Assembly (NCBI RefSeq): GCF_010994755.1
Contig: NZ_WHSB02000003.1
Span: 310,001-374,000 of the forward strand
Direction of reading: 5' to 3'
From: Shinella lacus
Lineage (GTDB): Bacteria; Pseudomonadota; Alphaproteobacteria; Rhizobiales; Rhizobiaceae
Length of the DNA stretch: 64,000 nucleotides
Positions 22,086 to 43,768 of this stretch are shown piece by piece. How positions within the stretch are numbered: position 1 is the first letter of the stretch; each line of letters opens with the position of its first letter. A program made the position numbers and the translations under genes. The notes under the pieces are model-generated. The model was not told the DNA's origin. It made no database searches and was given only the letters and a program-made list of their open reading frames with translations.

Positions 22086-22087
22086 CT

Positions 22088-28255: not shown

Positions 28256-29377
28256 TTAGTTGCTGGGAACCGGGGCGCCCGCGTCGTCGAAGGCGTAGAA
28301 GACGAACTTGAAGTCCTTCACGTCGCCCTTGTCGTTCCAGGCGAGATCACCAACCGCCGACTTGACGGAGTTGGCGCGAAGCCACGCGATCTGGTCCTCG
28401 ACGGAGCCTTCCTTGGTGCCCTGGACGGCCGCGACGATGGTCTGCGCGCTGGCATAGCCGAAGAGCGTGTAGTTGTCGGGGGCGATGTTCGCCTTCTTCA
28501 ACGCCGCCTGCGCATCCGCCGTCGCCGGGTCTTCCAGCGGGTTGGCGGCGGAGGAGTAGTAGACGTTCTTCAGGTTCTGCGCGCCGCCGGCGGCGGTGAC
28601 GATTTCGGTCTGGGCCAGCGCATCGCCGCTGACGAACTTCACGTCGAGGCCCTGTTCGTGGATCTGGCGGATGAGGGGGCCAGCTTCCGGAATGAGGCCG
28701 CCGAAATAGACGGCGGTGGCGCCGGCGCTCTTGATCTTGGTGACCAGCGCATTGAAGTCGCGCTCGCCGCGCGTCAGGCCCTCGTAGAGCACCGGTTCGA
28801 CGCCGCGCTCTTCCAGCGTCTTCTTCAAGGCATCGACGAGGCCCTGGCCATAGGTGTCCTTGTCATGGATCAGCGCGATCTTGTCGAGCTTCAGCGTATC
28901 GAGAATGAAGGCGCCGGCGACCACAGCCTGCTGGTCGTCGCGCCCGCAGGTGCGGAACATGGTCTCGAAGCCGCGATCGGTGACGATCGGGTTGGTCGAG
29001 GACGGCGTGACCGTCAGGATGCCGTTGTCGTTGTAGATCTCCGAGGCCGGGATCGTGCTCGACGAGCAGAAATGGCCGACGACGGCCTGCACCTTGTCCT
29101 GGTCGACGAAGCGGTTGGCGACGGCGACGGCCTGTTTCGGCTCGCAGGCATCGTCGCCCTTCACGAGCTCGATCTGCTTGCCGTCAATGCCGCCGGAGGC
29201 GTTCACTTCGTTCACATAGGCCGAGACGCCTGTCCAGACCTGCTCGCCGAAGGTGGCGTTGGCGCCGGTCATCGGGCCGGCGACGCCGATCTTGATGGTG
29301 TCGGCGGCGAGTGCCGGAACGAGAAACAGCGAAGATGCAATCGCGGTGGCCGCGAAGAATGTCGAGAAACGAGTCAT
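28256..29377 (-). CDS. livK: Branched-chain amino acid-type ABC transporter, binding protein LivK
   Basis: The 373-residue protein has a Sec signal peptide (FFAATAIASSLFLVPALAAD, with cleavage near ALA-AD). The mature start DTIKIGVAGPMTGANATFGE is characteristic of Leu/Ile/Val-type periplasmic binding proteins, as are EIYNDNGILTVTPSSTNP and KIALIHDKDTYGQGLVDALK. It is the first gene of livKHMGF and is divergent from the hyuA operon across a 290-base region. Joint regulation with hyuA is likely, and the cargo may be the HyuAB substrate rather than a branched-chain amino acid. Confidence 0.9.
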   Translation of the reverse strand: MTRFSTFFAATAIASSLFLVPALAADTIKIGVAGPMTGANATFGEQVWTGVSAYVNEVNASGGIDGKQIELVKGDDACEPKQAVAVANRFVDQDKVQAVVGHFCSSSTIPASEIYNDNGILTVTPSSTNPIVTDRGFETMFRTCGRDDQQAVVAGAFILDTLKLDKIALIHDKDTYGQGLVDALKKTLEERGVEPVLYEGLTRGERDFNALVTKIKSAGATAVYFGGLIPEAGPLIRQIHEQGLDVKFVSGDALAQTEIVTAAGGAQNLKNVYYSSAANPLEDPATADAQAALKKANIAPDNYTLFGYASAQTIVAAVQGTKEGSVEDQIAWLRANSVKSAVGDLAWNDKGDVKDFKFVFYAFDDAGAPVPSN

Positions 29378-29545: not shown

Positions 29546-29574
29546 TTGACACATGTATGATAAGTGATATATCC
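29546..29574 (+). promoter_or_regulatory. hyuA promoter with overlapping GntR-type operator
   Basis: TTGACA (29546-29551) is followed 16 bases later by TATATC (29568-29573), a plausible sigma-70 promoter. The segment 29552-29574 (CATGTATGATA, A, GTGATA, then TATCC) matches the site before gntR at 39124-39146 in 20 of 23 positions. It overlaps the spacer and -10, a repressor-type position. Confidence 0.6.
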
Positions 29575-29669
29575 AAAATCCGTCAAGCAGAAATCTTGCA
29601 TCGCTGCGCCAGCCGTGGAAACTGGTGCTCAAAGGTCCAAGCGACAGGGAATCGAGTGTGGGGAACGAC

Positions 29670-31754
29670 ATGGTGAACAACGCACCGCGGAACTGCCGCG
29701 TCGGGGTGGATATCGGCGGCACCTTCACGGACATCGCCCTCGATGTGGATGGCGCGCTCCATTCGACGAAGGTGCTGACCGACTACACCGCACCGGAGCG
29801 GGCGATCCTCAAGGGCGTCGCCGCCGTCGCCGAACTCGCCGGCATCGCGCTCTCGGAAATCGGCCTGCTGATCCACGGCACGACGCTCGCCACCAATGCG
29901 CTGATCGAGCGGCGCGGCGCCAAGACCGCCTTCGTCACCTCCGAGGGTTTTCGCGACACGCTGGAAATGCGCACGGAAAACCGCTTCGAGCAGTACGATC
30001 TCAACATCACCCTGCCGCCGGCACTGATCGCCCGAGCCGACCGCTTTACCGTGCGCGAACGCATGAACGCCGCCGGCAAGGTGCTGCTGGCGCTGGACGA
30101 GGCTTCCGTCGAGGCCGTCGTCTCGGCCATCGCGGCAGGCGGCTATGAAAGCGTCGCCATCGGCTTCATCCACGCTTACGCCAACGGCGCGCATGAGGCC
30201 GCCGTGCGCGACGCCCTCGTGAAGCGCCTGCCACATGTCTCCGTGTCGATCTCGTCGGAAGTCTCGCCGCAGATGCGCGAATTCGAGCGCTTCAACACGG
30301 TCTGCGCCAATGCCTATGTGAAGCCCGCGATCAAATCCTATCTCGACCGTCTCGTCGTCTCGCTGAAGCAGATCGGCGTCGGATGTCCGGTCTTCATGAT
30401 CCATTCCGGCGGCGGCATCGTCTCGGTGGAAAGCGCCTCGGAGTTTCCGGTGCGCCTCGTCGAATCCGGTCCCGCGGGCGGCGCGATCTTCGCCGCCGAT
30501 ATCGCCCGGCGCCACGGCCTCGACACGGTGCTCTCCTTCGACATGGGCGGCACGACGGCCAAGATCTGCCTGATCGAGAACCAGGTGCCGAAGACCGCCA
30601 AGACCTTCGAGGTCGCCCGCACCTATCGCTTCCGCAAGGGCTCCGGCATGCCGATCTCCATTCCTGTGGTCGAGATGGTGGAAATCGGTGCCGGCGGCGG
30701 CTCCATCGCCGGCGTCGATGCCATGCGTCAGATCCGCGTCGGCCCGCATTCCGCCGCCTCCGAGCCCGGTCCGGCCTGTTACCAGCGCGGCGGCAAGAAC
30801 CCGACCGTCACCGATGCGGACCTCATTCTCGGCAAGCTCGACCCCGACAACTTTGCCGGTGGCGCCATTCCGCTCTCCGTCGCGGCGAGCCGTCAGGCGA
30901 TGGCGGACGATATCGGCGCGGTGATCGGCCTCGATCCGGATGGCGCCGCCTACGGCACCTGCGAGATGGTGGACGAGAACATGGCCAATGCCGGCCGCGT
31001 CCACACGGTCGAAAACGGCAAGAACATCGCCGATTTCACCATGATCACCTTCGGCGGCGCTGGCCCGCTGCATGCCGCAAGGCTTTGCGAGAAGATGGGC
31101 ATCTCCACCTTCCTCGTGCCGGCCGGTGCCGGTGTCGGTTCGGCCATCGGCTTCCTGCGCGCGCCCTTCGGCTATGAATCGGTGCGCAGCGCCGTCTTCA
31201 ATCTCTCCGATTTCGATTTTACCGCGGCCAATCATCTGCTGGACAGCATGAAGGCCGAGGCGACCGGCTTCGTGGAAGGCGGGCTGGATGCCGGCGCACC
31301 GGTGATCGAACGCACGCTCTTCATGCGGTATGCGGGGCAGGGCTGGGATATTCCCGTGGCGCTCGCCGCCGATCGGTTCGATGCTCAGAGCGCGGAAAAG
31401 CTCGTGGACCTGTTCGAAGCCGATTATGCCCGCTTCTTCGGCCGCGCCATCGAGGGGCTGGACATCGAGATCGTCAGCTGGTCCGTGAAGGCCAGTTCGC
31501 CGCTGCCGCCGGTGGAACGGGTTGCCGCTGTCGATGAGGGCAGCGTCGTCACGTCGGCAAAGACCCGCCGTCTCTTCGAAGCCGCGCAAGGCGCCTTCCT
31601 TGATGCCGGCATTCATGAGCGTGATGACCTGAAGCCCGGCGATGTCGTGAAAGGTCCCGCCATCGTCGTGGAGCGCGAGACCTCCACCATGCTCACCGCC
31701 GCCTTCAAGGCCGTCGTCCAGAACGACGGGTGCCTGCTCGTTACCCGGCTGTAA
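29670..31754 (+). CDS. hyuA: Hydantoinase/oxoprolinase family protein, subunit A
   Basis: The 694-residue protein has the HyuA hallmark GVDIGGTFTDIALDVDGALH (ATP phosphate-binding loop of the ASKHA fold), then IHGTTLATNALIERRGAKTA and SGPAGGAIFAADIARRHGLD with FDMGGTTAKICLI. These proteins form the ATP-using half of hydantoinases, N-methylhydantoinases, 5-oxoprolinases and related carboxylases. ATG 29670 is chosen after GGGGAACGAC. It is the first gene of a six-gene operon, directly followed by hyuB. The actual substrate (hydantoin, oxoproline, lactam or ketone) cannot be read from the sequence. Confidence 0.88.
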   Translation: MVNNAPRNCRVGVDIGGTFTDIALDVDGALHSTKVLTDYTAPERAILKGVAAVAELAGIALSEIGLLIHGTTLATNALIERRGAKTAFVTSEGFRDTLEMRTENRFEQYDLNITLPPALIARADRFTVRERMNAAGKVLLALDEASVEAVVSAIAAGGYESVAIGFIHAYANGAHEAAVRDALVKRLPHVSVSISSEVSPQMREFERFNTVCANAYVKPAIKSYLDRLVVSLKQIGVGCPVFMIHSGGGIVSVESASEFPVRLVESGPAGGAIFAADIARRHGLDTVLSFDMGGTTAKICLIENQVPKTAKTFEVARTYRFRKGSGMPISIPVVEMVEIGAGGGSIAGVDAMRQIRVGPHSAASEPGPACYQRGGKNPTVTDADLILGKLDPDNFAGGAIPLSVAASRQAMADDIGAVIGLDPDGAAYGTCEMVDENMANAGRVHTVENGKNIADFTMITFGGAGPLHAARLCEKMGISTFLVPAGAGVGSAIGFLRAPFGYESVRSAVFNLSDFDFTAANHLLDSMKAEATGFVEGGLDAGAPVIERTLFMRYAGQGWDIPVALAADRFDAQSAEKLVDLFEADYARFFGRAIEGLDIEIVSWSVKASSPLPPVERVAAVDEGSVVTSAKTRRLFEAAQGAFLDAGIHERDDLKPGDVVKGPAIVVERETSTMLTAAFKAVVQNDGCLLVTRL

Positions 31755-31765
31755 GGAACGAACCG

Positions 31766-33439
31766 ATGAACCAGTCCCCCGAAAATCGATCTCTGATCGA
31801 TATCCATATGCAGGTCATGTGGAACCGCCTGATCTCCGTCGTGGAGGAACAGGCCCAAACGCTGATCCGCACCGCGTTTTCCACCTCCGTGCGCGAGGCG
31901 GGCGACCTCTCCGCCGGGGTGTTCGACCTCGAAGGCCGCATGCTGGCGCAGGCCGTCACCGGCACGCCGGGCCATGTCAACGCCATGGCCGAATCCGTCG
32001 CCCATTTCATCCGCGATATCGGTCCGGAAAACATCTTTGAAGGCGACGTCTACATCACCAACGATCCGTGGAAGGGCACCGGCCACCTGCACGACATCAC
32101 GGTCGTCACGCCGTCCTTCCATCATGGCAAGCTGGTCGGCTATTTCGCCTCCACCGCCCATGTGGTCGATATCGGCGGTCGCGGCTTCGGGCCGGATGCG
32201 CGCGAAGTCTATGAAGAGGGCCTCTTCATCCCGATCATGAAGTTCGTCGAGCGCGGCGAACTGAACCGCACGCTCATCCACATCGTGCGCAACAATGTGC
32301 GGGAGAACGACAAGGTGGTCGGCGACTTTCATGCGCTCGCCGCCTGCAACGAGACCGGCCACCGTCGCCTCATCGACATGCTGACGGAATTCAATCTCGA
32401 AGACCTGTCGATGATCGGCGGCTTCATCCTGAAGCACAGCCGCGAGGCAACGTTGGAGCGGCTGAAGAACCTGCCGCATGGCAGCTGGTCCTACAGCCTC
32501 GATCTCGACGGTTATGGCGAGCCGGTGCATCTGGCTGCCAAGCTCACCATCGGCCCGGAGGGCGTGCTGGTCGATTTCGACGGCACGTCGGGCATGAGCA
32601 AGTTCGGCATTAACGTGCCGCTCGTCTATGCCAAGGCCTACGCCTGCTACGGCATCAAATGCGTGGTCGCGCCGGAAATTCCGAACAATGCCGCCTCGCT
32701 CGCGCCCTTCGATGTCGCGGCGCCCGAAGGCTGCATCCTCAATGCCAAGCGCCCTGCGCCCGTCGCCGTGCGCCACGTGCTCGGCCATTTCGTGCCGGAT
32801 CTCGTGCTCGGCGCGCTGCACCAGGCGCTGCCCGGCCAGGTGCCGGCGGAGGGTGCCAGCGCGCTCTGGAACCTGCATATGAGTGTGCGACCCCTTTCCG
32901 ACCAGATCGGCGGCAAGGGCGCGGAAATCCTGATGTTCAATTCCGGCGGTTCCGGCGCGCGTGCCTCGCTGGACGGGCTGAACGCCACCGCCTTCCCGAG
33001 CGGCGTGCACACCATGCCGATTGAGGCGACGGAGAATGTCGGCCCGGTCATCGTCTGGCGCAAGGAACTGCGCGAAGGCTCCGGCGGGGCTGGCGCCCAG
33101 CGCGGCGGTCTCGGCCAGATGATCGAGATCGAAGCGGCCGAAGGGTTTTCGTTCCGCTTCTCCGCCATGTTCGACCGCTTGAACCACCCGGCCCGCGGCC
33201 GTGACGGTGGCCTCGACGGCGCGCCCGGCGGCGTGGCGCTCGATGACGGCACGGCGCTGAAGGGCAAGGGCCTGCAATTCGTGCCGGAAGGTCGGCGCCT
33301 CGTGCTCTCGCTGCCCGGCGGCGGAGGTTATGGCGATCCGGCCGCGCGTCCGGCAGAGGTCGTCGCCCATGACGTCAGGCATGGTTACATCACAGAGGAG
33401 CAGGCCGCGCTTTACGGCAAGGCGGGAGGCAAGGCATGA
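31766..33439 (+). CDS. hyuB: Hydantoinase/oxoprolinase family protein, subunit B
   Basis: The 557-residue HyuB protein begins MNQSPENRSLIDIHMQVMWN. It shows the family segments AFSTSVREAGDLSAGVFD, YITNDPWKGTGHLHDI and the C-terminal GGGGYGDPAARP. It completes a HyuA-HyuB enzyme that opens a cyclic amide using ATP, or a relative of it. It starts 11 bases after hyuA and its stop overlaps the aminotransferase start as ATGA. Confidence 0.88.
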   Translation: MNQSPENRSLIDIHMQVMWNRLISVVEEQAQTLIRTAFSTSVREAGDLSAGVFDLEGRMLAQAVTGTPGHVNAMAESVAHFIRDIGPENIFEGDVYITNDPWKGTGHLHDITVVTPSFHHGKLVGYFASTAHVVDIGGRGFGPDAREVYEEGLFIPIMKFVERGELNRTLIHIVRNNVRENDKVVGDFHALAACNETGHRRLIDMLTEFNLEDLSMIGGFILKHSREATLERLKNLPHGSWSYSLDLDGYGEPVHLAAKLTIGPEGVLVDFDGTSGMSKFGINVPLVYAKAYACYGIKCVVAPEIPNNAASLAPFDVAAPEGCILNAKRPAPVAVRHVLGHFVPDLVLGALHQALPGQVPAEGASALWNLHMSVRPLSDQIGGKGAEILMFNSGGSGARASLDGLNATAFPSGVHTMPIEATENVGPVIVWRKELREGSGGAGAQRGGLGQMIEIEAAEGFSFRFSAMFDRLNHPARGRDGGLDGAPGGVALDDGTALKGKGLQFVPEGRRLVLSLPGGGGYGDPAARPAEVVAHDVRHGYITEEQAALYGKAGGKA

Positions 33440-34647
33440 ACATGATCGCGTTTGAAAGTCTTCGGGCATCCACCATCAAATCCTCGCCCTCAATGGCTGT
33501 TTCCATGGCGGCGAAGGCCATGCGGGCGAAGGGTGAGCAGGTGATCGACCTGTCGCTCGGTGAGCCGGATTTCGACACGCCCGCCCATATCGTGGACGCC
33601 GCGGTGGATGCGATGAAGCGCGGCATCACCCGCTACACCGCGCCCGATGGCCTGCCGGAGCTGCGTGAGGCGATCGTCCGCAAATTCAAGCGGGAGAACG
33701 GTCTCGACTATGCCATGGACGAGATTTCCATCGGCAACGGTGCCAAGCAGATTCTGTTCAATGCCTTCCTCGGCACGCTGGAGCCCGGCGACGAGGTGGT
33801 CGTGCCGGCGCCCTACTGGGTCTCCTACACGGACATCGTCATCTTACATGGCGGCGTGCCTGTCATCGTGCCCTGCGGCGTCGAGCAGGCCTTCAAGATC
33901 ACGCCCGAACGGCTGGAAGCGGCGATCACGCCGAAGACGCGCTGGTTCCTGTTCAATTCGCCTTCCAACCCGACAGGGGCGATCTACACCGCCGCCGAGC
34001 TGAAGGCGCTGGGCGAGGTTCTGGCCCGCCATCCCCGCGTCGCCATCATGTCGGACGAGATCTACGAACACATCGTCTGTGCCGACGTGCCCTTCACCTC
34101 CTTCGCCAATGCCTGCCCGGAGCTTCGCGACCGCACGCTGCTTATCAACGGCGTCTCCAAGGCCTATGCCATGACCGGCTGGCGGCTGGGTTATGCGGCG
34201 GGGCCGAAGGCGCTGACGAAGGTGCTGAACAAGATGCAGTCGCAGAGCACGACCTGCCCATCGTCGATCACGCAGGTTGCCGCCGCCGCGGCGCTGAACG
34301 GCCCGCAGGATTTCGTCACGACGGCTGTCGCGGAATACAAGGCGCGCGGCGAGCTGGTGACACGCGGCTTCCGCGCCATTCCGGGGCTTGAGGTGCGCGC
34401 GCCGGAAGGCGCCTTCTACCTCTTCCCGAAATGCGCCGTCCATATCGGCAAGACCGCACCGGATGGCACCGTGATCGAGAACGACACGGCGCTTGCCGCC
34501 TACCTGCTGACGGAAGGCAAGGTCGCGACCGTGCCGGGCGCCGCCTTCGGCGTCGAGCCCTATATCCGCCTGTCCTTCGCCACATCGCGCGACAATCTCA
34601 CGCTGGCCATCGCGCGCATCGCCGATGCCTTGGCTCGGCTTCGCTAA
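33436..34647 (+). CDS. Aspartate-type aminotransferase (class I)
   Basis: The 403-residue PLP enzyme resembles rhizobial aspartate aminotransferases: SLGEPDFDTPAHIVDAAVDA, SPSNPTGAIYT, the Lys of NGVSKAYAMTGWRLGY, and a C-terminal Arg region RLSFATSRDNL. Within this operon it may transaminate an amino acid released by HyuAB rather than serve central metabolism. It is coupled to hyuB by ATGA overlap and followed after 11 bases by the dehydrogenase-like gene. Confidence 0.87.
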   Translation: MNMIAFESLRASTIKSSPSMAVSMAAKAMRAKGEQVIDLSLGEPDFDTPAHIVDAAVDAMKRGITRYTAPDGLPELREAIVRKFKRENGLDYAMDEISIGNGAKQILFNAFLGTLEPGDEVVVPAPYWVSYTDIVILHGGVPVIVPCGVEQAFKITPERLEAAITPKTRWFLFNSPSNPTGAIYTAAELKALGEVLARHPRVAIMSDEIYEHIVCADVPFTSFANACPELRDRTLLINGVSKAYAMTGWRLGYAAGPKALTKVLNKMQSQSTTCPSSITQVAAAAALNGPQDFVTTAVAEYKARGELVTRGFRAIPGLEVRAPEGAFYLFPKCAVHIGKTAPDGTVIENDTALAAYLLTEGKVATVPGAAFGVEPYIRLSFATSRDNLTLAIARIADALARLR

Positions 34648-34658
34648 CGAGGAACCCC

Positions 34659-35465
34659 ATGTCCCATTTCCAGAGAGTTTTATTGACGGGGGCGGCCGGC
34701 AGCGTCGGCACGGCGCTTCGCCAGTCCGGCACGCGGCTCGGCACGATCGTCCGGCTTTCCGACCGCAAACCTTGTGAAAACGTCGCCTCGCATGAGGAGG
34801 ATTTCCCGCTGGAGCTTGCCGATTTCGATGCGGTTTCGGAAGCGGTGAAAGGCTGCGACGCCATCGTGCATCTCGGCGGGCAGCCGCTCGAAGGGGCATG
34901 GAAGACCATCCTCGATTCCAACATTTCCGGCGGCTACCACATCTACGAGGCCGCGCGCCGCCACGGCGTCAAGCGCATCGTCTATGCCAGTTCCGTGCAC
35001 GCCATCGGCTATTACGAGCGAACGGAGACGATCGACGGCAGCGTGCCGACGCGGCCGGATAGCCTCTACGGCGTCTCGAAGACCTTCGTGGAAAACCTCG
35101 GGCGTTACTATTTCGACAAGTTCGGCATCGAGACGGTCTCGCTCCGCATCGGCTCCTGCTTTCCGGAGCCGACCGATCGCCGCCACCTCATCACTTGGCT
35201 CTCCTATCGCGATTGCCGCCAGCTCGTCGAAAAGAGCCTGTCGGCGCCGCGCGTCGGCTTCATGGTCGCCTATGGCATGTCGAACAATTCGCAGGCCTTC
35301 TGGGACAATCGCACCGCCGCCGTGCTCGGCTACAAGCCGCAAGACAGCGCCGACGACTATGCCGACAAGGTTTTCGCCAAGACCGAGCAGGGCGACCCGA
35401 ACGACCCGGCCGTGCGCTACCAGGGCGGCAGTTTCACGGCTGCCGGTCATTTCGAGGACGAGTGA
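34659..35465 (+). CDS. NAD-dependent epimerase/dehydratase family, uronate dehydrogenase-like
   Basis: The 268-residue extended SDR protein has the nucleotide loop TGAAGSVG (residues 10-17), the catalytic pair Tyr137-x3-Lys141 (LYGVSK), and RIGSCFPEPTDRRHLITWLS. Length and sequence style closely follow Agrobacterium uronate dehydrogenase, which oxidises galacturonate or glucuronate to the aldarolactone. The SSNH motif remembered for that enzyme is SSVH here (Val113), and residues after HLGG also differ, so the substrate is probably not a uronate. ATG 34659 follows a GAGGAA ribosome site. Confidence 0.82.
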   Translation: MSHFQRVLLTGAAGSVGTALRQSGTRLGTIVRLSDRKPCENVASHEEDFPLELADFDAVSEAVKGCDAIVHLGGQPLEGAWKTILDSNISGGYHIYEAARRHGVKRIVYASSVHAIGYYERTETIDGSVPTRPDSLYGVSKTFVENLGRYYFDKFGIETVSLRIGSCFPEPTDRRHLITWLSYRDCRQLVEKSLSAPRVGFMVAYGMSNNSQAFWDNRTAAVLGYKPQDSADDYADKVFAKTEQGDPNDPAVRYQGGSFTAAGHFEDE

Positions 35466-36658
35466 TGCAGGCTTCGAAGACATCATATGACGTCGTGATC
35501 GTCGGTGGAGCCGTGGTCGGCAGCGCCACGGCCTATTTCCTCGCCACCAATCCCGATTTTACGGGTTCCGTGCTGGTGATCGAGAAGGACTGGACCTACC
35601 AGCGCTCGGCCACGGCACTCTCCTCCAGCTCCATCCGCCACCAGTTTTCCAACGCGATCAACGTCAAGGTCTCGCAGTTCGGCACGGAATTCATCCGCAA
35701 TTTCGAGGAGAACGTCGCGGTCGACGACGACACGCCGGAAATCGGCTTTCACGAGAACGGCTATCTCTTCCTCGCCGGCGACGAGCGCGGCGCGGATGTG
35801 CTTCGCCGCAACCATGAAACGCAGGTCGCCTGCGGCGCCGAGGTTTCGCTGCTCGCTCCCGAGGGGCTCGGCCGGCGGTTTCCCTGGCTGAACGTCGAGG
35901 GGCTGACGCTGGGCAGCACCGGCGAGCGCGGCGAGGGCTGGTTCGACAGCGTCGGTCTCCTCCAGGGCTTCCGCAAGAAGGCCCGGTCGCTCGGCGTCGA
36001 ATATATCGAGGACGAAGTTGTCGCGGTGAACCGCGAGGGCGATCGCGTGGTCTCGGTAACGACGAAGGGCGGGCAGACGATCGCCTGCGGCACGATGGTC
36101 AACACCTCGGGCACCAACGGCAAGAAGATGGCCCGCATGGCCGGCCTCGACATCCCGGTCGAGCCACGCCGGCGGTCGCTGTTCGTCGTGGATTGCCGCA
36201 CCCCGCTCGAAGGCTCGGTCGGCCTCACCATCGACCCGACCGGCGTGTTCTTCCGCCCAGAGGGGAAATTCTACCTGATGGGCACCTATCCGAAACACGA
36301 TCCGGAGGTCGATCCGAACGATTTCGAGGTGATGCACCACGAATTCGAGGATGAGATCTGGGAGACGCTCGCCCATCGCGTGCCGGCCTTCGAGGCGATC
36401 AAGGTCGTGAACAGTTGGGCGGGGCATTACGATTATTGCACGCTCGATCACAATGTCATCCTCGGCCCGCATGGCGAGTTGAAGAACTTCCTCTTCGCCA
36501 ACGGCTTTTCCGGCCATGGCCTGCAACAGTCGCCGGCCATGGGGCGGGGGCTTTCGGAACTGATCACCTATGGCGGCTTCCGCACGCTCGACCTTTCGCC
36601 CTTCGGCTACGCGCGTGTGGCCGCGAACCGCCCCTTCCTTGAAGATGCCGTGATCTGA
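35465..36658 (+). CDS. FAD-dependent oxidoreductase (DAO/DadA-like)
   Basis: The 397-residue protein has an N-terminal FAD Rossmann motif (DVVIVGGAVVGSATAYFLA, with E at the end of strand two in VIEKDW) and the DAO-family C-terminus (WAGHYDYCTLDHNVILGPHG, then NGFSGHGLQQSPAMGRGLSE). Relatives oxidise D-amino acids, sarcosine, glycine or other secondary amines. It starts by a TGATG overlap with the previous gene. It may remove nitrogen from an N-substituted amino acid formed by HyuAB. Confidence 0.85.
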   Translation: MQASKTSYDVVIVGGAVVGSATAYFLATNPDFTGSVLVIEKDWTYQRSATALSSSSIRHQFSNAINVKVSQFGTEFIRNFEENVAVDDDTPEIGFHENGYLFLAGDERGADVLRRNHETQVACGAEVSLLAPEGLGRRFPWLNVEGLTLGSTGERGEGWFDSVGLLQGFRKKARSLGVEYIEDEVVAVNREGDRVVSVTTKGGQTIACGTMVNTSGTNGKKMARMAGLDIPVEPRRRSLFVVDCRTPLEGSVGLTIDPTGVFFRPEGKFYLMGTYPKHDPEVDPNDFEVMHHEFEDEIWETLAHRVPAFEAIKVVNSWAGHYDYCTLDHNVILGPHGELKNFLFANGFSGHGLQQSPAMGRGLSELITYGGFRTLDLSPFGYARVAANRPFLEDAVI

Positions 36659-36674
36659 CGGCCGGGAGACAGAC

Positions 36675-38360
36675 ATGAAAACCGAGAACAAGGCCCGCAG
36701 CGGCGGCCAGGTGCTGGTCGACGCCTTGAGAATCCATGGCGTCGAGCGGGTGTTCGGCGTGCCGGGCGAGAGTTATCTGGCGGTGCTGGATGCCTTCCAT
36801 GATGCGGAAAAGACGATCGAATTCGTGATCTGCCGGCAGGAAGGCGGGGCGGCCTATATGGCGGAGGCCTATGGCAAGCTGACGGGCAAGCCCGGCATCT
36901 GCTTCGTCACCCGCGGGCCGGGCGCCACCAATGCCTCGGTCGGCGTGCACACGGCTTTCCAGGATTCGACGCCGATGATCCTGTTCATCGGCCAGGTGGC
37001 GCGCGACCAGATGGAACGCGAGGCCTTCCAAGAGATCGACTATCGCCGCATGTTCGGCCAGATGGCGAAATGGGTGGTGGAGATCGAGGATGCGGCGCGC
37101 ATTCCGGAACTGATCAGCCAGGCCTTCCACCGCGCCGTCAACGGCCGGCCGGGACCGGTGGTGGTGGCGCTGCCGGAGGATATGCTGACCGACCTTGTGG
37201 TCGTTGCCGATACACCGGCTTTCAAGCGGGTGGAAGTCTATGCCGGAGAGCCGCAGCTCGACGAACTGACCACGCTGCTGGCGAAGGCCGAACGTCCAAT
37301 GGTCGTCGCCGGTGGGGGTGGCTGGACGCAGCAGGCCGTTGCCGATCTCAAGGCCTTTTCGGAAGCCTTCTCGCTCCCGGTCGCCGCCTCGTTCCGCTGC
37401 CAGGACCTCTTCGACAACACGCATCCGAACTATGCGGGCGACCTCGGCCTTGCCGCCGGGCCGAAGCTGATCCAGCACGTCAAGGATTGCGACCTGCTGA
37501 TTTCCATCGGTGCCCGGCTCGGCGAGATGACCACGGGGTCCTATACGCTGATCGATATTCCAGTGCCGAAGCAGACGCTCGTTCACATCCACCCCGGTGC
37601 CGAAGAACTCGGCCGCGTCTATTACGCGACGTTGCCGATCAATGCGAGCGTCGCCGGCTTCCTGTCGCAAGCGACGAAGCTGAAGCCCGCCGCTACGCCG
37701 CGTTGGGTCGAATGGACGAAGGCGGCGCATGCCGACTATCTTGCAAACATCGATTACCCGCAGGTTCCCGGTCCCGTGCAGATGGGCGCGGTGATGGAAT
37801 GGTTGCGCGATCACCTGCCGGCCAATGCGATCCTGACGACGGGGGCGGGCAACTATTCCGCCTGGGCGCACCGCTTCTACCAGTACCGCACCTTCCGCAC
37901 CCAGCTCGGGCCGACCAACGGCTCGATGGGCTACGGCGTGCCGGCGGCGATCGCGGCAAAGATCACCGCGCCGGAGCGCGCGGTCGTCGCCTTCGCCGGC
38001 GATGGCTGCTTCCTGATGAACGGGCAGGAACTGGCCACCGCGATGCAGTATGATGCCCGCGTCATCTTCCTTGTCATCAACAACGGAATGTACGGCACGA
38101 TCCGCATGCACCAGGAACGAAACTATCCGGGCCGGGTTTCCGGCACACGGCTCACCAATCCGGATTTTGCCGATCTCGCCCGCTCCTACGGCCTGCACGG
38201 CGAGACGGTGGAGAACACGGAAGAGTTCGCCGATGCCTTCCGGCGTTCGGAGGCATCCGGCAAGCCGGCGCTGATCGATATCCGCATCGATCCGGAGGCG
38301 CTGACGCCGAAGATGAGCCTGTCGCAGATCCGCGAGCAGGCGCTTGCCGCGGGCCGGTGA
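36675..38360 (+). CDS. Thiamine diphosphate-dependent enzyme, acetolactate synthase-like
   Basis: The 561-residue protein has the three-domain ThDP layout. The N-terminal PYR domain holds the cofactor-activating Glu in ICRQEGGAAYMAEAYGKL and RGPGATNASVGVHTAFQD. The middle domain spans about 195-330. The C-terminal PP domain has the Mg/ThDP motif GDGCFLMNGQELATA with INNGMYGT. It is not clearly IlvB. In this context it could decarboxylate or ligate a 2-oxo acid produced by the aminotransferase or oxidase. It is the last gene of the hyuA operon and converges with gntR at a 6-base gap. Confidence 0.83.
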   Translation: MKTENKARSGGQVLVDALRIHGVERVFGVPGESYLAVLDAFHDAEKTIEFVICRQEGGAAYMAEAYGKLTGKPGICFVTRGPGATNASVGVHTAFQDSTPMILFIGQVARDQMEREAFQEIDYRRMFGQMAKWVVEIEDAARIPELISQAFHRAVNGRPGPVVVALPEDMLTDLVVVADTPAFKRVEVYAGEPQLDELTTLLAKAERPMVVAGGGGWTQQAVADLKAFSEAFSLPVAASFRCQDLFDNTHPNYAGDLGLAAGPKLIQHVKDCDLLISIGARLGEMTTGSYTLIDIPVPKQTLVHIHPGAEELGRVYYATLPINASVAGFLSQATKLKPAATPRWVEWTKAAHADYLANIDYPQVPGPVQMGAVMEWLRDHLPANAILTTGAGNYSAWAHRFYQYRTFRTQLGPTNGSMGYGVPAAIAAKITAPERAVVAFAGDGCFLMNGQELATAMQYDARVIFLVINNGMYGTIRMHQERNYPGRVSGTRLTNPDFADLARSYGLHGETVENTEEFADAFRRSEASGKPALIDIRIDPEALTPKMSLSQIREQALAAGR

Positions 38361-38366
38361 CGATGC

Positions 38367-39098
38367 TCAGTCGTCCGCTTCGCTGCCGGCCGGTTCGTCG
38401 AGCATCAGCCGGTAGCGGCTGAGGCTTTCCTCCAGATGCGCGGCCAGCGCCTGCTTGGCCGCCTTCGGATCGCCCTGGGTGATCGCCGCGAGGATGGCGG
38501 CGTGCTCCTTGTTGATCTTCTTCAGATAGGCATTGTAGGAGCGGCCGGACTGGCGGTGTTTCAGCACGAGGTCGAAATTGATCTCGCCCATCACCGCGAC
38601 GAGGAAGCGCGGGAAATGCGGGTTGCGCGTCGCCTTGGCGATGGCGAGGTGGAATTCGAAGTCGGCGCGCGCCTCGATTTCCGCATCGCTCGTGTCGAGG
38701 TTCTCGATATAATCGAAGGCGCGGGCGATTTCGGCGAGTGCTTCGGGCGTGCGGCGCTGGGCGGCAAGCGCCACGGACTGCATTTCCACGCCGAGCCGGA
38801 GTTCGAGGATCTGCATCGCCGAGCGGATGTCGTCGATGCGGCTGATCTCGAAATTCAGCGTCTTGGCGTCCTTCTCCGTGACATAGACGCCCGCACCCTG
38901 GCGGGCCATGACGCGGCCTGCCACCTTGAGCGAGGTCAGCGCCTCGCGGATGACGGTGCGCGAGACGCCGAACTCCTCGCACAACTGCGCGCTTGACGGG
39001 ATCTTCTCACCGGGCGCATAAAGTCCGGAGTCCATGCGCTCGGCCAGTTTGGCGACGACGATTTCCGCGAGATTGCCGCGCTGCGTGATGATCGACAT
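38367..39098 (-). CDS. GntR/FadR-type transcriptional regulator with FCD domain
   Basis: The 243-residue protein has the winged helix AEIVVAKLAERMDSGLYAPG followed by QLCEEFGVSRTVIREALTSL, then an FCD effector domain with metal-site residues (FDYIENLD, FEFHLAIAKA). ATG 39098 follows GGCGGGATCGCC; ATG 39134 is less likely. It sits between the hyuA operon and the divergent dehydrogenase/SDR units. A 23-base site nearly identical to that at the hyuA promoter lies 26-48 bases upstream of its own start, so it is the likely regulator of the whole locus, including itself. Confidence 0.87.
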   Translation of the reverse strand: MSIITQRGNLAEIVVAKLAERMDSGLYAPGEKIPSSAQLCEEFGVSRTVIREALTSLKVAGRVMARQGAGVYVTEKDAKTLNFEISRIDDIRSAMQILELRLGVEMQSVALAAQRRTPEALAEIARAFDYIENLDTSDAEIEARADFEFHLAIAKATRNPHFPRFLVAVMGEINFDLVLKHRQSGRSYNAYLKKINKEHAAILAAITQGDPKAAKQALAAHLEESLSRYRLMLDEPAGSEADD

Positions 39099-39123
39099 GG
39101 CGATCCCGCCTTTGTTGAAGTTT

Positions 39124-39146
39124 GCATTTATCACATATCATACATG
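39124..39146 (-). promoter_or_regulatory. GntR-type operator embedded in the 3' end of the dehydrogenase gene
   Basis: Read on the minus strand the segment gives CATGTATGATA, T, GTGATA, then AATGC, matching 29552-29574 at 20 of 23 positions. It covers the last four codons and the stop of the FAD/Fe-S dehydrogenase gene and lies just upstream of gntR. This arrangement suggests autoregulation. Confidence 0.6.
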
Positions 39147-42100
39147 GCGTCGTCCTTGAGGGGAAGCGCCGCGTCATCTTCAAGTCTTGCGCGAAGGATT
39201 TGTAGAGGATGCGGGATCTGCCGCTCGTCCATCAGCTTTGCCTGCGAGCGGCAGGAATAGCCGGTCGCCATCATCACGTCATCCGCCCCGGTGGCCGCAA
39301 GCGCCGGCTGCCAGCTCATGGCATAGAGCCGTTGGGAAATCTCCCGGTTGCGCACCTCATGGCCAAAAGTGCCGGCCATGCCGCAGCAGCCGGTGTCGGC
39401 GGCGACCACGTCGATGCCGAGTTTTGCGAAGACGGCGATCCATTGGCCGACGGCGGCGGGCGCGGTGCTACGCTCGGTACAATGCGCCATGAGACGATGG
39501 CGCGGCTGGTTGCCGGGGAGGGTGGGCAGGCGATCGGTGAGGGTCACAAGCCATTCCTGCGGAAGGAGCACACGCGCTCGCATGGCGGCCGCGCCGGCAT
39601 ATTCGCTGCGGAAGGCGAGCGTCATCGAGGGGTCGAGGCCGACGAGGGGGATGCCTGTTTCGGCAAGCCGGTCGAGCTTCCGCGCGGTGCGTCGCGCCGT
39701 CCTGTGGAAGGCGCCGAGATAACCATGCACATGCAACGCCTTGCCGTTCAGCAGCGGTGGTGCGAGGAAGGGGTGCATCCCGAGGCGCCGTGCGACTGCC
39801 ACGGCATCCAGCAGCACCTGCCTGTCGAAATGTTCGGTGAAGGCGTCCGGCACGAAGATGACGGCGTCGGCGCGTTGCGCGGGGGTGAGCCGCGCGAGCG
39901 CCTGCGGTGTGGCGGTCGGCACGCGGCCGAGTTCCCGGCCCAGCGAAAGCGCGGGGAGGGTGGGAAGCGCGGTCAGGCCTGCGCGCCGCAGCAGCCCCTT
40001 GCCGAGGGACGAGCCGACGGCGAGGTTGTAGAGCGGGCGCGCCCGCGTCATCAGCGGCAACATCGTCTCGATGGTCGCGACGATCGGGTCCTTTACCGGC
40101 CGCAGATAACGTCCGTAATAGAGCTCGAAAAACTTGGCGCGGAAGGCCGGCACGCTGACCTTGACCGGACATTGCCCGGCGCAGGCCTTGCAGGCGAGGC
40201 AGGTGTCCATCGCCGCGCGCACTTCGTGGGAGAAGTCGCCGCGATTGGCGGGGTTGAGGCTGTTCCAGGCCCGCCGCGCAAGCCGCAGGACGACGCTCGT
40301 GCGGCGCTGCTGTTCGGCCTCGCGGCGCGGATCGATGCCTTTTTCGGAAAGCCGCCGCAGCCATTCGCGCATCAGCGAGGCGCGTCCCTTCGGCGAAAAC
40401 CGCCGGTCGCGCGTCGCCTTGTAGGAGGGACACATCAGGCTGTCGGCATCGAAGTCGAAACAGGCACCGTTGCCGTTGCAATAGGCGGCATTGTCGAAGG
40501 CGGCGCGGATATCGTTGCCGATGGCGCGGTCGAGCGTTCCGCGCAGGGGAACGGCGTCGATCTTCGGCAGGCTACCGCCCGCAGGCGCGACGATCTTGCC
40601 GGGATTCAGCTGGTTGAGCGGATCGAAGGCCTGCTTGATCTCCTGCAGGCGCGGATAGAGCGGTCCAAAGAAGGCCGGCACATATTCCGAGCGAACGCCT
40701 TTGCCATGTTCGCCCCACAGCACGCCGCCATATTTTTGCGTCAGCGCCACGACGGCATCGCTGATGCGCCGGACGAGGGCTGCATGATCGTCCCGGGTGA
40801 GATCGAGCGCCGGGCGCACGTGCAAGACCCCGGCATCCACATGGCCGAACATGCCGTAGGTAAGCCCCTCCGCGTCCAGCAGCGCGCGAAACTCCCGGAT
40901 GTAAGCGGCAAGATGGTCCGGCGGCACGGCGGTGTCCTCGACGAAGGGCACGGGCCGCGTCGGCCCCTCCACATTGCCGAGCAGCCCGACCGCTCGCTTG
41001 CGCATCGCCCAGATCGCCTCGATATCGGCCTTTTCGACGGTGATCGTGTAACCCTTGCGGCCGGCAAAGGCGGTTTTCGCAAGCGCGGCGGTGACGGCCG
41101 CAAGCTTTTCGGAAAGCTCTTCCGGCGTATCGGCCAGCACTTCGGCGATGTTGATGCCGTCCGCGTCGCCGGGAAAGAAGGCGGCGATGCGTGGCCAGAC
41201 GATATCGCCTCCGGCGAGCCGCAGCACCGTCTCGTCGATGGTCTCGACCGAGGCGACGTCGAGCGCAACAAGGGTGCGGGCGTCTTCGAGGGCGGCGTTG
41301 AAATCGTCGTAACGGATGTTGATGAGCGCCGCGCAGGGGGGAATGGGAAGCAGGTTGAGCTCCGCCTCCGCGATCATCGCCAGCGTGCCCTCGGAGCCGC
41401 AGAGAACCGCGTTGAGGTCGAAGCGGCCGTCCTCGCGCTGGAGATGGGCGAGGTCATAGCCCGTCATGAAGCGGTTGAGTTTCGGGAAGATCCGTTCGAT
41501 CAGCGCCTTGTCGTCACGGGCGATGCGGGCCAGCGTACGGTGGATATGGCCGATGCGGTCCTGCCGCGCCTGAAGCGCCCGCAACTCCTCCTCGCGCACC
41601 GGGCGGGAGAGGAAATCGCTGCCATCCGCCAGTACCACGCGAAGGCCCAGTACATGATTGCTGGTCTTGCCGTAGAGGCAGGAGCCCTGTCCGCAGGCGT
41701 CGGTGGAGACCATGCCGCCGATCGTCGCGCGGTTCGATGTTGACAATTCCGGCGCGAAGAACAGGCCGTGCGGCGCCAGCGCCTTGTTCAACTGGTCCTT
41801 GACGACGCCGGCCTCGACACGGGCGATGCGGCGAACCGGGTCGATCTCCAAAATCCTGTTCATGTGGTGCGAGCAGTCGACGATGATGCCTTCGCTCAGC
41901 GACTGGCCGTTCGTCCCGGTGCCACCGCCGCGGGGTGCAATCGTGACGCCGGAAAATTCCGGGCGGGCGAGGGCCTTGGCAATGCGCTTGAGATCGCCGA
42001 TGTTTTTGGGAAAGACGATGCCGGCCGGTTCCACCTGGTAGATGGAGTTGTCCGTGGAAAAGACGAGCCGATCCGCAGGCCCCGTGCCGATATCGCCCTC

Positions 42101-42181
42101 GAAGCCGTGGGTTGCGAGATGGCGAAGGAAATTGTCGCTTGGCGAGGCGATGCGCCGGTCGGCATCGAGGCGGGGAATCAT
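39131..42181 (-). CDS. FAD-linked oxidase / Fe-S oxidoreductase fusion (D-2-hydroxyacid dehydrogenase type)
   Basis: The 1016-residue fusion joins a GlcD-like FAD half to a GlpC-like iron-sulfur half. The FAD-binding PP-loop is GGTGTNGQSLSEG; the C-terminal FAD-oxidase domain follows to about residue 540. Next come CNGNGACFDFD and CLACKACAGQCPVK for 4Fe-4S clusters, and a CCG-type domain near ADTGCCGMAGTFGHEVRN. Such fusions oxidise D-lactate, D-2-hydroxyglutarate or related acids and pass electrons to the quinone pool. The start at 42181 (MIPRLDADRR) is preferred to ATG 42226, which lies in the regulatory site. It probably oxidises a 2-hydroxy acid intermediate of the locus. Confidence 0.85.
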   Translation of the reverse strand: MIPRLDADRRIASPSDNFLRHLATHGFEGDIGTGPADRLVFSTDNSIYQVEPAGIVFPKNIGDLKRIAKALARPEFSGVTIAPRGGGTGTNGQSLSEGIIVDCSHHMNRILEIDPVRRIARVEAGVVKDQLNKALAPHGLFFAPELSTSNRATIGGMVSTDACGQGSCLYGKTSNHVLGLRVVLADGSDFLSRPVREEELRALQARQDRIGHIHRTLARIARDDKALIERIFPKLNRFMTGYDLAHLQREDGRFDLNAVLCGSEGTLAMIAEAELNLLPIPPCAALINIRYDDFNAALEDARTLVALDVASVETIDETVLRLAGGDIVWPRIAAFFPGDADGINIAEVLADTPEELSEKLAAVTAALAKTAFAGRKGYTITVEKADIEAIWAMRKRAVGLLGNVEGPTRPVPFVEDTAVPPDHLAAYIREFRALLDAEGLTYGMFGHVDAGVLHVRPALDLTRDDHAALVRRISDAVVALTQKYGGVLWGEHGKGVRSEYVPAFFGPLYPRLQEIKQAFDPLNQLNPGKIVAPAGGSLPKIDAVPLRGTLDRAIGNDIRAAFDNAAYCNGNGACFDFDADSLMCPSYKATRDRRFSPKGRASLMREWLRRLSEKGIDPRREAEQQRRTSVVLRLARRAWNSLNPANRGDFSHEVRAAMDTCLACKACAGQCPVKVSVPAFRAKFFELYYGRYLRPVKDPIVATIETMLPLMTRARPLYNLAVGSSLGKGLLRRAGLTALPTLPALSLGRELGRVPTATPQALARLTPAQRADAVIFVPDAFTEHFDRQVLLDAVAVARRLGMHPFLAPPLLNGKALHVHGYLGAFHRTARRTARKLDRLAETGIPLVGLDPSMTLAFRSEYAGAAAMRARVLLPQEWLVTLTDRLPTLPGNQPRHRLMAHCTERSTAPAAVGQWIAVFAKLGIDVVAADTGCCGMAGTFGHEVRNREISQRLYAMSWQPALAATGADDVMMATGYSCRSQAKLMDERQIPHPLQILRARLEDDAALPLKDDAMYDM

Positions 42182-42219
42182 GGGCAAGGGTTCCGGAAGC
42201 GGCTTGCACTTCGTAAAAG

Positions 42220-42243
42220 TTAGCATATAAGTGATAACATACC
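42220..42243. promoter_or_regulatory. GntR-type site between the dehydrogenase and SDR genes
   Basis: ATAAGTGATA at 42227-42236 is identical to the 10-base core at the hyuA promoter, flanked here by CAT on the left and ACAT on the right. The divergent starts are 42181 and 42283, so one bound protein could control both. The match outside the core is weaker than for the other two sites. Confidence 0.5.
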
Positions 42244-42282
42244 AATATGGCCACGCAACTTGAAAATCGCGAGGAGTGAAAC

Positions 42283-43032
42283 GTGAAGAACCAGTCTGTT
42301 GTCATCGTCGGCGGCGCTTCGGGCCTCGGTCTCACGACGGCCAAGCTGATGATCGCGCATGGCGCGCAAAAGATCGGCCTGATCGACCGCAACGAGGCGC
42401 TGCTCGCCACTTCGGCGGCAGAACTCGAAGCTCTCGGCGCCGAGGTGGCGACGGCGGTGGCGGATATTTCCCGCGCGGAGACGGCGCATGCGGGCTTCGC
42501 TGCGGTTGCCGGCAAGCTCGGCCGCGTGCACGCCCTGGTCAACAGTGCGGCGATCTATCCGCGAAAGGCCATTCTCGACATTACCGACGAGGACTGGGAC
42601 CTGGAAAACGCCATTAACGTCAAGGGCACCTATCACATGATGGTCGCCGCCGTGCGCCACATGCGCCAGTTCGTCAATCCGCCGGAGGTGACCGGCCGCA
42701 TCGTCAACATCACCTCGGTCGATGCCTTCAAGGCCCATCCGCAGAACGCGCATTACGCCGCCACCAAGGCCGCCGTCGTCAGTCTTACGAAATCCTTCGC
42801 GCAGGAATGCGCCAAGGATCAGATCCTGGTGAATTCCGTGGCGCCCGCCGGCTTTGCCACGGACCGCGCCAAGGAACTCGGCTTCCTGCCGGAACTCGCG
42901 AAAGCCAGCGCGCTCGGCCGCGCGGCGGAACCGGTTGAAATGGCCGAATGGATCGTCATGATGGCCTCCAGCCGCAACACCTATGCGACCGGCGAGAATG
43001 TCGTGATCAGCGGAGGTTACATCTATGTCTGA
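42283..43032 (+). CDS. Short-chain dehydrogenase/reductase
   Basis: The 249-residue classical SDR has the NAD(P) loop VGGASGLGL, the NSAAIYPRK strand, Ser in ITSVDAF, and Tyr-x3-Lys in [16 protein letters not shown] start at 42283 is supported by a strong GAGGAG (42271-42276). It is divergent from the FAD/Fe-S dehydrogenase gene and overlaps the next SDR gene by 8 bases. Together they may interconvert a hydroxy and oxo intermediate. Confidence 0.87.
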
Positions 43033-43768
43033 CGCCTATCGCCTCGCTGTCGTCACGGGCGCGACCAGCGGCATCGGCAAGGCGATCGTGCCCATGCTGC
43101 GCCGGCGCGGGCTGGCGGTCCATGCCGTCGGCCGCAACGAGGCGGTGCTGGCCGAGCTCGCCGAAAACTGCGGCGCCGTGCCCGTGGTGGCGGATGTGCG
43201 CGACACGGCGCGCATCGCAGACGCGCTGGCCGGCGTCGAGGTCGATATTCTCGTCAACAATGCCGGCATCCTGTCGACCCGGGCGGCCTTCCAGGACATC
43301 GATCCCGCAGAAATCGACGCGATGATCGACGTCAACCTCAAGGCGCCGATGCATCTGACACGCGCCTTCCTGCCCGGCATGGTCGCCCGCAAGCGCGGCC
43401 ATCTCATCTATATCGGCTCCAGCGGCGGGCAGGCGCCCTATCCGGGCATGGGCGCCTACGGTCCATCGAAGGCCGGCCTCAGCCTGTTTTGCGACAATCT
43501 GCGCTGCGACCTGCTCGGCACCTCCGTGCGGGTCAGCGAGATCGTGCCGGGCCGCGTCCAGACGGCGCTCTACCGCACCTCCATCCCCGGCAACCAAGCT
43601 GCCGCCGTGCTCTATGACGGCTATCGGCCGATCCAGCCGGAAAACATCGCGCAGGTCGTCAACGACGTGATTGCGCTGCCGGTCCATGTCGACGTCGCCC
43701 GTGTCGAGGTTTTCCCGACCGACCAGGCGACCGGCGGCGGGACGATGGTGAAGTTCGAGGCGCCGTAG
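43025..43768 (+). CDS. Short-chain dehydrogenase/reductase
   Basis: The 247-residue classical SDR has [25 protein letters not shown], Ser in [11 protein letters not shown], and the catalytic YGPSKAG. It overlaps the preceding SDR gene and is only distantly similar to it, so they probably catalyse different steps rather than being a recent duplication. Confidence 0.87.

Follow-up and report, generated by a model that had tools for sequence, protein, structure and literature searches.

A conserved Shinella lacus gene cluster that may degrade a pipecolate-type imino acid by way of a lactam

Which compound is broken down by a compact set of hydantoinase-, dehydrogenase- and decarboxylase-type genes in Shinella lacus, and by what chemistry? 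The genes lie in a stretch of 64,000 nucleotides (contig NZ_WHSB02000003.1, positions 310,001 to 374,000), hereafter the window, within a genome of 7.04 Mb. A first-pass annotation, made from the sequence without database searches, had found that the set matched no pathway it recognized as described. We also found no published description of such a route in open-access full texts; one that appeared in a subscription journal may have escaped this search. Here we propose, as a tentative reading of sequence and gene context, that the cluster degrades a pipecolate-type cyclic imino acid, with 5-hydroxypipecolate as the likeliest candidate, through a lactam intermediate. The genes concerned are listed below in their order along the window.

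24393..25127, minus strand: livF, ATP-binding protein of a Liv-type importer (from its sequence; an 84-88% homologue adjoins the cluster in Rhizobium sp. BT03, Rhizobium sp. SL42, locus L074 and R. wenxiniae)
25124..25942, minus strand: livG, ATP-binding protein
25939..27246, minus strand: livM, permease, start MQNNR
27261..28178, minus strand: livH, permease, start MDAFI
28256..29377, minus strand: livK, periplasmic binding protein (nearest solved structures are amino-acid or Leu-Ile-Val binding proteins, best 3ip5, E 2.2e-87)
29670..31754, plus strand: hyuA, ATP-binding lactamase subunit (PF05378, PF01968, PF19278; PDB 7hk5, 6yra)
31766..33439, plus strand: hyuB, metal-binding ring-opening subunit (PF02538, 482.5 bits; alignment to 6yra_B)
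33436..34647, plus strand: class I/II aminotransferase, PRK06107-like, under that model's cut-off
34659..35465, plus strand: uronate-dehydrogenase-like (Udh-like) short-chain dehydrogenase/reductase (SDR) (3ay3, E 3.7e-82; 3rft, E 1.8e-75)
35465..36658, plus strand: FAD dehydrogenase of the DAO family, amine oxidase-like, hereafter DAO (PF01266; relatives' neighbourhoods; tree)
36675..38360, plus strand: thiamine diphosphate (ThDP) enzyme of the PRK08199 family, proposed 2-oxo acid decarboxylase (927.8 bits against a cut-off of 539)
38367..39098, minus strand: GntR/FCD regulator, start MSIIT, a longer frame to 39134 being possible (PF00392, PF07729)
39131..42181, minus strand: YdiJ-family D-2-hydroxyglutarate dehydrogenase, a 1016-residue FAD/Fe-S protein, start MIPRL, a longer frame to 42226 being possible (NF049975)
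42283..43032, plus strand: SDR1 (PF13561; conserved with the cluster)
43025..43768, plus strand: SDR2, YdfG-like (PF00106; best NCBIfam model NF007829, below its cut-off; conserved with the cluster)

All of these genes are intact, contain no internal stops and stand in the order given among the open reading frames (ORFs) of the window. The six plus-strand genes from hyuA to the ThDP enzyme gene are indeed tightly coupled, with intergenic gaps of −4 to +16 bases. The importer genes livKHMGF (24393-29377, minus strand) diverge from this operon, with 292 bases between livK and hyuA, while gntR and ydiJ lie after it on the minus strand and diverge from the SDR pair, whose genes overlap by 8 bases. 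The flanking importer, GntR regulator, 1016-residue protein and two SDRs were likewise confirmed, livKHMGF falling outside the interval originally marked (29546..43768), and the family names first assigned are borne out by Pfam and NCBIfam, and in the case of the Udh-like protein by solved structures as well. No inverted repeats that could be operator sites were seen in the two divergent intergenic regions inspected.

The block is conserved elsewhere among rhizobia, and some beta- and gamma-proteobacteria have versions of it. A megablast search of a plasmid collection with the 14.3-kb block matched 173 plasmid records. In 37 of these, at least 80% of the block is found together at a single site, so chance does not explain the neighbourhood. 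The earlier view of the genes as one catabolic unit is supported. The nearest relatives in that collection come from Sinorhizobium, Shinella and Rhizobium. In Rhizobium sp. BT03 and SL42 the same genes occur, and directly after the Liv importer come genes for an aldehyde dehydrogenase and an annotated electron-transfer flavoprotein (ETF); two Shinella plasmids carry hyuAB, udh, dao, gntR and the SDR pair only. Paracoccus sp. MA has, in a single run, an aldehyde dehydrogenase, a GlcD-like FAD enzyme, the ThDP enzyme, hyuAB, the aminotransferase, udh, dao and the SDR pair, where a LysR regulator separates dao from the SDRs. In R. wenxiniae (L104), Paracoccus-type enzymes adjoin Rhizobium-type Liv, aldehyde dehydrogenase and ETF genes, and this mixture suggests that the two types of enzyme serve one substrate. 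A further locus, in Rhizobium giardinii (L081), has Udh, DAO, GntR and both SDRs, HyuAB not being detected within the fetched stretch.

The neighbourhoods of DAO relatives hint at what this enzyme may act on. An alignment of DAO scanned against GTDB representative genomes matched at least 595 stretches, at least 351 of them encoding relatives, and the best 80 loci were kept; their context was read by tblastn with reference proteins (E 1e-20, at least half coverage) over up to 10 kb on each side, less at contig ends. A homologue of L-piperideine-6-carboxylate (P6C) dehydrogenase, at 63-86% identity, was found in 16 of the 80 loci, and Udh and/or HyuAB in another 17, in which P6C dehydrogenase was not found; within the fetched stretches no locus held both contexts. 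HyuA, HyuB, Udh and DAO occur together in 12 of the 17. Among the remainder, L074 has HyuA, Udh and DAO, with HyuA as the last match before the locus end and no HyuB found; L081, L114 and L116 have Udh with no HyuAB found, and L109 has HyuAB with no Udh found. ThDP homologues of at least 50% identity are present in 11 of the 17 Udh/HyuAB loci and 11 of the 16 P6C-dehydrogenase loci, and in none of the 47 other loci. On the simplest reading, Udh and HyuAB would replace P6C dehydrogenase while the later steps stay.

The DAO tree follows the same division. In a maximum-likelihood tree of 93 DAO proteins, all 27 from a Udh/HyuAB context (the window, nine plasmid loci and 17 scan loci) form a single clade, supported at 100/99, with no other row within it; the L109 protein sits on a long branch and its placement is unsure.

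On the other side of the division, Burkholderia vietnamiensis G4 has a DAO relative (49% identity) adjoining a P6C dehydrogenase that exceeds its curated cut-off (807.8 against 730). The same locus encodes a racemase, an ornithine-cyclodeaminase-type enzyme, a second DAO protein, HGLS, an aminotransferase, annotated etfBA and a 992-residue FAD-linked oxidase, 29% identical to the window YdiJ protein, and we take it to be a lysine-pipecolate-2-oxoadipate route. In L052, L056 and L060 the cluster lies next to a binding protein that shares 53-55% identity with the one encoded in the G4 pipecolate locus. As a separate observation, a DUF3422 protein adjoins both the lactam cluster of Rhizobium sp. 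SL42 (L008 25330-27635) and the pipecolate cluster of B. vietnamiensis (L015 18694-20010). DAO, P6C dehydrogenase and the ThDP enzyme are found together in L055, L063, L068, L073, L076, L077, L091, L098, L103, L108 and L111; these eleven loci possibly represent a pipecolate or lysine route in which a ThDP decarboxylase would replace HglS. The Azospirillum DAO locus L020 contains, besides DAO, no member of either the lactam set or the P6C set by similarity search, and two of the ten ORFs scanned there gave Pfam matches, to a response regulator and a histidine kinase.

The S. lacus genome also has a separate set of pipecolate-type genes. On contig C53 (L022 6932-15005), an AmaA-like protein (471 against a cut-off of 600), HglS, P6C dehydrogenase and a PRK06107-type aminotransferase are encoded close together. 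P6C dehydrogenase was not found in the window cluster, where neither the ORFs nor the matches of the genome search include an aldehyde dehydrogenase, and the genome's NF050084 protein is on C53; HglS was not found in the cluster either, the genome's single HglS match being the one on C53. The window DAO gave no match at E 0.001 to NF050086, the model of the pipecolate-oxidizing AmaA family.

How could a uronate-dehydrogenase-like enzyme serve such a pathway? The window protein matches solved uronate dehydrogenases at E 1e-74 to 1e-84, with the Tyr137-Lys141 pair, His114 within the Ser-Ser-X-His strand (SSVH), and Arg175, a residue with a role in substrate binding. Asn111 of the Agrobacterium tumefaciens enzyme, a residue tied to binding of the carboxyl group (PMC4476818), corresponds to Val113 in the window protein. 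Among 26 aligned cluster members this position is Val in 23, Ile in two (L114, L116) and Asn in one (Pseudomonas L052), and Val here together with Phe at the Gly position equivalent to 163 marks the Paracoccus-type members.

Position 111 separates neighbourhoods across the family as well. In 151 sampled genomes, 39 of which have a Udh homologue at E 1e-60, there were 42 homologues outside the window, and 40 of these were fetched. Val or Ile occupies the position in nine, of which seven adjoin DAO and/or HyuAB and none adjoins KdgD; Asn or Gln occupies it in 31, of which none adjoins DAO or HyuAB and 24 adjoin KdgD. The association with a DAO/HyuAB neighbourhood (Fisher p 1.9e-6) is indicative only, as related genomes are not independent; leaving out the three of the nine that had been seen previously (L121, L122, L128) gives 4/6 versus 0/31 (p 2.3e-4). 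In L160 (8442-10501), an Ile-type homologue lies beside a DAO protein (45%), with no HyuAB detected nearby. For UdhOg of Oceanicola granulosus, in which residue 111 is Ile and residue 163 is Phe, the Km was reported as the largest and the kcat as the lowest among five uronate dehydrogenases; the authors offered the guess that its natural substrate could be another uronic acid, and mannuronate proved no better (PMC4476818). The real substrate of UdhOg may be a cyclic hemiaminal.

The equipment for opening a lactam is well preserved. HyuA and HyuB exceed the cut-offs for PF01968, PF05378, PF19278 and PF02538, and Asp47, His107, Asp110 and His132 of HyuB align in 6yra_B with the CapB metal ligands Asp41, His99, Asp102 and His124, all four of which are essential by mutation (PMC8453981). 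The phosphate-site motifs of HyuA, read from the 7hk5 alignment and motif positions, include Asp14 and Asp291, and these two aspartates correspond to residues needed in caprolactamase (PMC8453981). Because the two proteins fall well short of the caprolactamase equivalog models (454.9 and 172.4 bits, with cut-offs of 1000 each), their substrate is probably a lactam other than caprolactam.

The predicted later processing of 2-oxo and 2-hydroxy acids is supported as well. The nearest paralogue of the aminotransferase in the same genome (55%) belongs to the HglS/P6C-dehydrogenase cluster, the next being 52% identical. Eight of the 17 loci with Udh/HyuAB have an aminotransferase homologue, as do three of the 16 with P6C dehydrogenase. 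The ThDP enzyme scores best with PRK08199 and falls under the cut-offs of the other models among the 25 best of 56; this result, together with the P6C dehydrogenase neighbours of its homologues in 11 of 16 such loci, led us to reject plain acetolactate chemistry for it. The 1016-residue protein, first annotated broadly as a 2-hydroxyacid dehydrogenase fusion, can be narrowed to the YdiJ family of D-2-hydroxyglutarate dehydrogenases (1430.6 bits with NF049975 against a cut-off of 1350). Four aldehyde dehydrogenases from related loci were scanned: those of BT03, S. meliloti and Paracoccus have 2-oxoglutarate-semialdehyde (2,5-dioxovalerate) dehydrogenases as their best models, below cut-off, and the fourth, in G4, is the P6C dehydrogenase. 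Both SDRs are present in 10 of the 17 Udh/HyuAB loci and, within the fetched stretches, in none of the 16 P6C-dehydrogenase loci (p 3e-4); because of this distribution the substrate would seem to differ from that of the P6C-type loci, perhaps by a hydroxyl group.

Taken together, these enzymes can be arranged into a pathway, of which we infer the substrate, its hydroxyl group, the order of reactions and each activity. LivKHMGF would import 5-hydroxypipecolate, and DAO would oxidize its C6-N bond, passing electrons to electron-transfer flavoprotein; the product would hydrate to a 6-hydroxy ring, a hemiaminal that is the nitrogen analogue of a uronic acid. In uronic acids the ring oxygen has a carboxylate on one side and, on the other, a carbon that carries a hydroxyl; 6-hydroxypipecolate presents the same arrangement around nitrogen. 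The Udh-like enzyme, with NAD, could then convert the hemiaminal to the 6-oxo lactam, which HyuAB would open with ATP to 2-amino-5-hydroxyadipate. The aminotransferase would yield 5-hydroxy-2-oxoadipate, the ThDP enzyme would decarboxylate this to 2-hydroxyglutarate semialdehyde, and an aldehyde dehydrogenase of the 2-oxoglutarate-semialdehyde family would give 2-hydroxyglutarate, whose D form YdiJ would oxidize to 2-oxoglutarate. SDR1 and SDR2 may adjust the hydroxyl centre. With a hydroxyl at C5 of the substrate, the route would balance, leading through 2-hydroxyglutarate semialdehyde to 2-oxoglutarate.

This arrangement alters one part of the logic first put forward for the locus, namely import, ATP-dependent ring opening and then amine removal. 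ATP-dependent ring opening stands, and it is probably not the first step. Because DAO and the Udh-like enzyme most likely supply the lactam that HyuAB opens, import of a cyclic imino acid of the pipecolate type is more probable than import of the hydantoin or ready-made lactam originally suggested, and the lactam would be an intermediate. We rejected hydantoin or N-methylhydantoin use, there being no carbamoylase among the ten cluster proteins scanned.

A relative of the cluster on Sinorhizobium meliloti ml47 pSymA (L017 9108-23797) encodes HyuAB (63/68% identical to the window proteins), an aminotransferase, KdgD over its cut-off, a 2-oxoglutarate-semialdehyde-type dehydrogenase and a DAO protein, with an annotated RidA and an amino-acid ABC importer; it looks like a sister lactam pathway that would join the uronate route. 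A more specific scheme is possible, and we advance it with less confidence than the general proposal: a repurposed uronate dehydrogenase would turn a hydroxypipecolate hemiaminal into a hydroxylated 6-oxopipecolate lactam, the ATP-dependent lactamase would open it and the ThDP decarboxylase would lead on to D-2-hydroxyglutarate, while the pSymA sister cluster would feed a 4,5-dihydroxypipecolate-type lactam into the uronate pathway at 5-dehydro-4-deoxyglucarate.

Is the suggested substrate available to such bacteria? 5-Hydroxypipecolic acid is reported from Amorpha fruticosa leaves and one of four pod samples, the cis form tentatively (PMC12299671), and from seeds of Caesalpinia spinosa, one of 22 species (PMC11854323); Lathyrus japonicus is named in a title in the reference list of PMC12299671. 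The passages of PMC5979394 on nodules mention both a hydantoinase operon and pipecolate and draw no link between them. A legume source of 5-hydroxypipecolate fits legume symbionts and is no proof, and relatives in Pseudomonas, Burkholderiaceae and Paracoccus carry the cluster too.

Several observations weigh against the proposed hydroxypipecolate route. Of the 80 DAO loci, 47 show neither context, and the mutual exclusion of P6C dehydrogenase and Udh/HyuAB is weak on its own (p 0.018; related loci are not independent). The link to pipecolate depends on the neighbours of relatives about 45-55% identical to DAO, which shares only short local similarity with its own genome's AmaA-like protein. 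HyuAB relatives of 60-68% identity have no Udh or DAO-clade neighbours on two plasmids, S. meliloti pSymA and one from Pseudosulfitobacter; Val-type Udh homologues in L124 and L126 have no DAO or HyuAB nearby, the Pseudomonas cluster L052 retains Asn111, and all five characterized enzymes, UdhOg included, are described as uronic-acid-specific (PMC4476818). An aminotransferase, a related ThDP enzyme and YdiJ were not seen in the clusters of some Shinella (HZN7, WSC3-e and S. granuli) or in the three from Burkholderiaceae (L056, L060, L075). Finally, no aldehyde dehydrogenase gene adjoins the window cluster: the nearest homologue (81%) belongs to an arabinose-type operon with L-arabinonate dehydratase and GguB/GguC-type genes, and the window strain would have to borrow its aldehyde dehydrogenase from elsewhere in the genome.

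Other substrates could pass through much the same enzymes. Plain L- or D-pipecolate would follow the same lactam route, HyuAB yielding 2-aminoadipate and the ThDP enzyme and an aldehyde dehydrogenase taking this to glutarate, and pipecolate is the simplest substrate in the P6C-dehydrogenase contexts of the DAO and ThDP homologues. We nevertheless consider it unlikely and favour 5-hydroxypipecolate, because plain pipecolate leaves the D-2-hydroxyacid dehydrogenases (YdiJ, or the GlcD-like enzyme in Paracoccus) and the SDR pair without a role, and the AmaA-like, P6C dehydrogenase and HglS genes are already present elsewhere in the genome. The chemistry is formally identical for a five-membered analogue such as hydroxyproline, which DAO and Udh would convert to a hydroxy-5-oxoproline for HyuAB to open, with the aminotransferase, the ThDP enzyme and an aldehyde dehydrogenase then leading to D-malate and oxaloacetate; the HyuAB superfamily does include 5-oxoprolinases (PMC8453981). 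However, the DAO and ThDP relatives sit with P6C dehydrogenase and, at one locus, HGLS, both of which serve six-carbon chains, YdiJ exceeds a D-2-hydroxyglutarate dehydrogenase cut-off, and the aldehyde dehydrogenases resemble those for C5 semialdehydes, so that a hydroxyproline-type substrate is quite improbable. Alternatively, an opine-like lactam might be imported and opened first by HyuAB, with DAO cleaving the opened product. Agropinic acid catabolism on Ti plasmids works in this manner, with HyuAB acting first on the imported lactam, and one Ti plasmid region has an SDR, an FAD enzyme, HyuA (35% identical to the window protein) and HyuB adjacent to one another. The Ti FAD enzyme, though, aligns to DAO over only about 100 residues at 36%, and the 22-kb Ti stretch gave no sign of a Udh-like or related ThDP protein; on these grounds an agropinic-acid-like system was not our first choice, and with the P6C-dehydrogenase contexts of the DAO and ThDP relatives added, we judge it improbable.

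The two remaining explanations do without the lactam route altogether. If the Udh-like protein were a true uronate dehydrogenase, the genes could form an ordinary cluster for oxidizing a uronate or amino-uronate. Its nearest solved structures, its retained Tyr-Lys pair and Arg, and the reported specificity of UdhOg, which has similar substitutions, all fit; the neighbourhoods do not, since in the fetched family sample 24 of the 31 Asn/Gln types adjoin KdgD and none adjoins DAO or HyuAB, while the nine Val/Ile types never adjoin KdgD, and UdhOg was the weakest of the five enzymes on uronates (PMC4476818). We give this explanation hardly any credence. That the genes are independent modules, side by side by chance or under loose co-regulation, would account for the variation of the liv, aminotransferase, ThDP and YdiJ genes between loci, and is very doubtful given that HyuA, HyuB, Udh and DAO are kept together in loci of several families, that the DAO clade tracks context, and that the operon genes overlap or lie within 16 bases of each other. 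The route from hydroxypipecolate through a lactam is, tentatively, the reading we prefer.

The window contains further genes outside the cluster. To the left of liv (15465-24127) lie separate minus-strand genes for a carbon-nitrogen hydrolase, an Amidohydro_3 protein, a beta-lactamase-family protein and a polyamine-type ABC importer, with a GntR regulator on the plus strand. At 44021-45855, domain matches identify an ANTAR-domain regulator and an NMT1-like protein, a pair that we take to resemble the NasT/NasS nitrate sensor pair.

If the proposed route is correct, it would provide a gene-level path for hydroxypipecolate breakdown in rhizobia and other bacteria, and would assign functions to genes with generic names such as 'hydantoinase/oxoprolinase family', 'NAD(P)-dependent oxidoreductase', 'FAD-binding oxidoreductase' and 'thiamine pyrophosphate-binding protein'. 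It could also supply a natural substrate for the weak uronate dehydrogenase UdhOg, and it would amount to an ATP-dependent lactam detour where the known pathway needs a single aldehyde dehydrogenase step.

Four known systems come closest to the cluster. In the agropinic acid region of Ti plasmids, HyuAB-type proteins also adjoin an FAD oxidoreductase and an SDR; the sequences are distant, and Udh-like and related ThDP proteins were not detected in the Ti stretch. With the ATP-dependent lactamases (caprolactamase CapAB, hydantoinases and 5-oxoprolinases) the cluster shares the HyuA/HyuB architecture, ATP-site motifs and four metal ligands; it differs in scoring far below the caprolactamase cut-offs and in a lactam that would be made internally. 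The oxidative uronate pathway (uronate dehydrogenase, lactone opening, KdgD, 2-oxoglutarate semialdehyde dehydrogenase) likewise oxidizes a hemiacetal-type carbon in a carboxylate-bearing ring before opening it, and a related aldehyde dehydrogenase is found in some of the clusters. In the window, by contrast, a nitrogen ring would become a lactam that needs an ATP-driven lactamase, KdgD is absent from the cluster, and Asn111 is replaced by Val or Ile in 25 of the 26 aligned members. Bacterial pipecolate and D-lysine catabolism (AmaA, the P6C dehydrogenase AmaB, an aminotransferase, HglS and D-2-hydroxyglutarate dehydrogenase) has in common with the window the putative FAD-dependent ring oxidation, the aminotransferase and a D-2-hydroxyglutarate dehydrogenase leading to 2-oxoglutarate. 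Here the Udh-like enzyme and ATP-dependent HyuAB stand in for P6C dehydrogenase and the ThDP enzyme for HglS, an SDR pair is added, and DAO lies outside the AmaA family model. The locus is best described as a real, conserved and apparently undescribed catabolic cluster, which varies known routes for pipecolate and for the oxidation of uronates and is not a system of a new kind.

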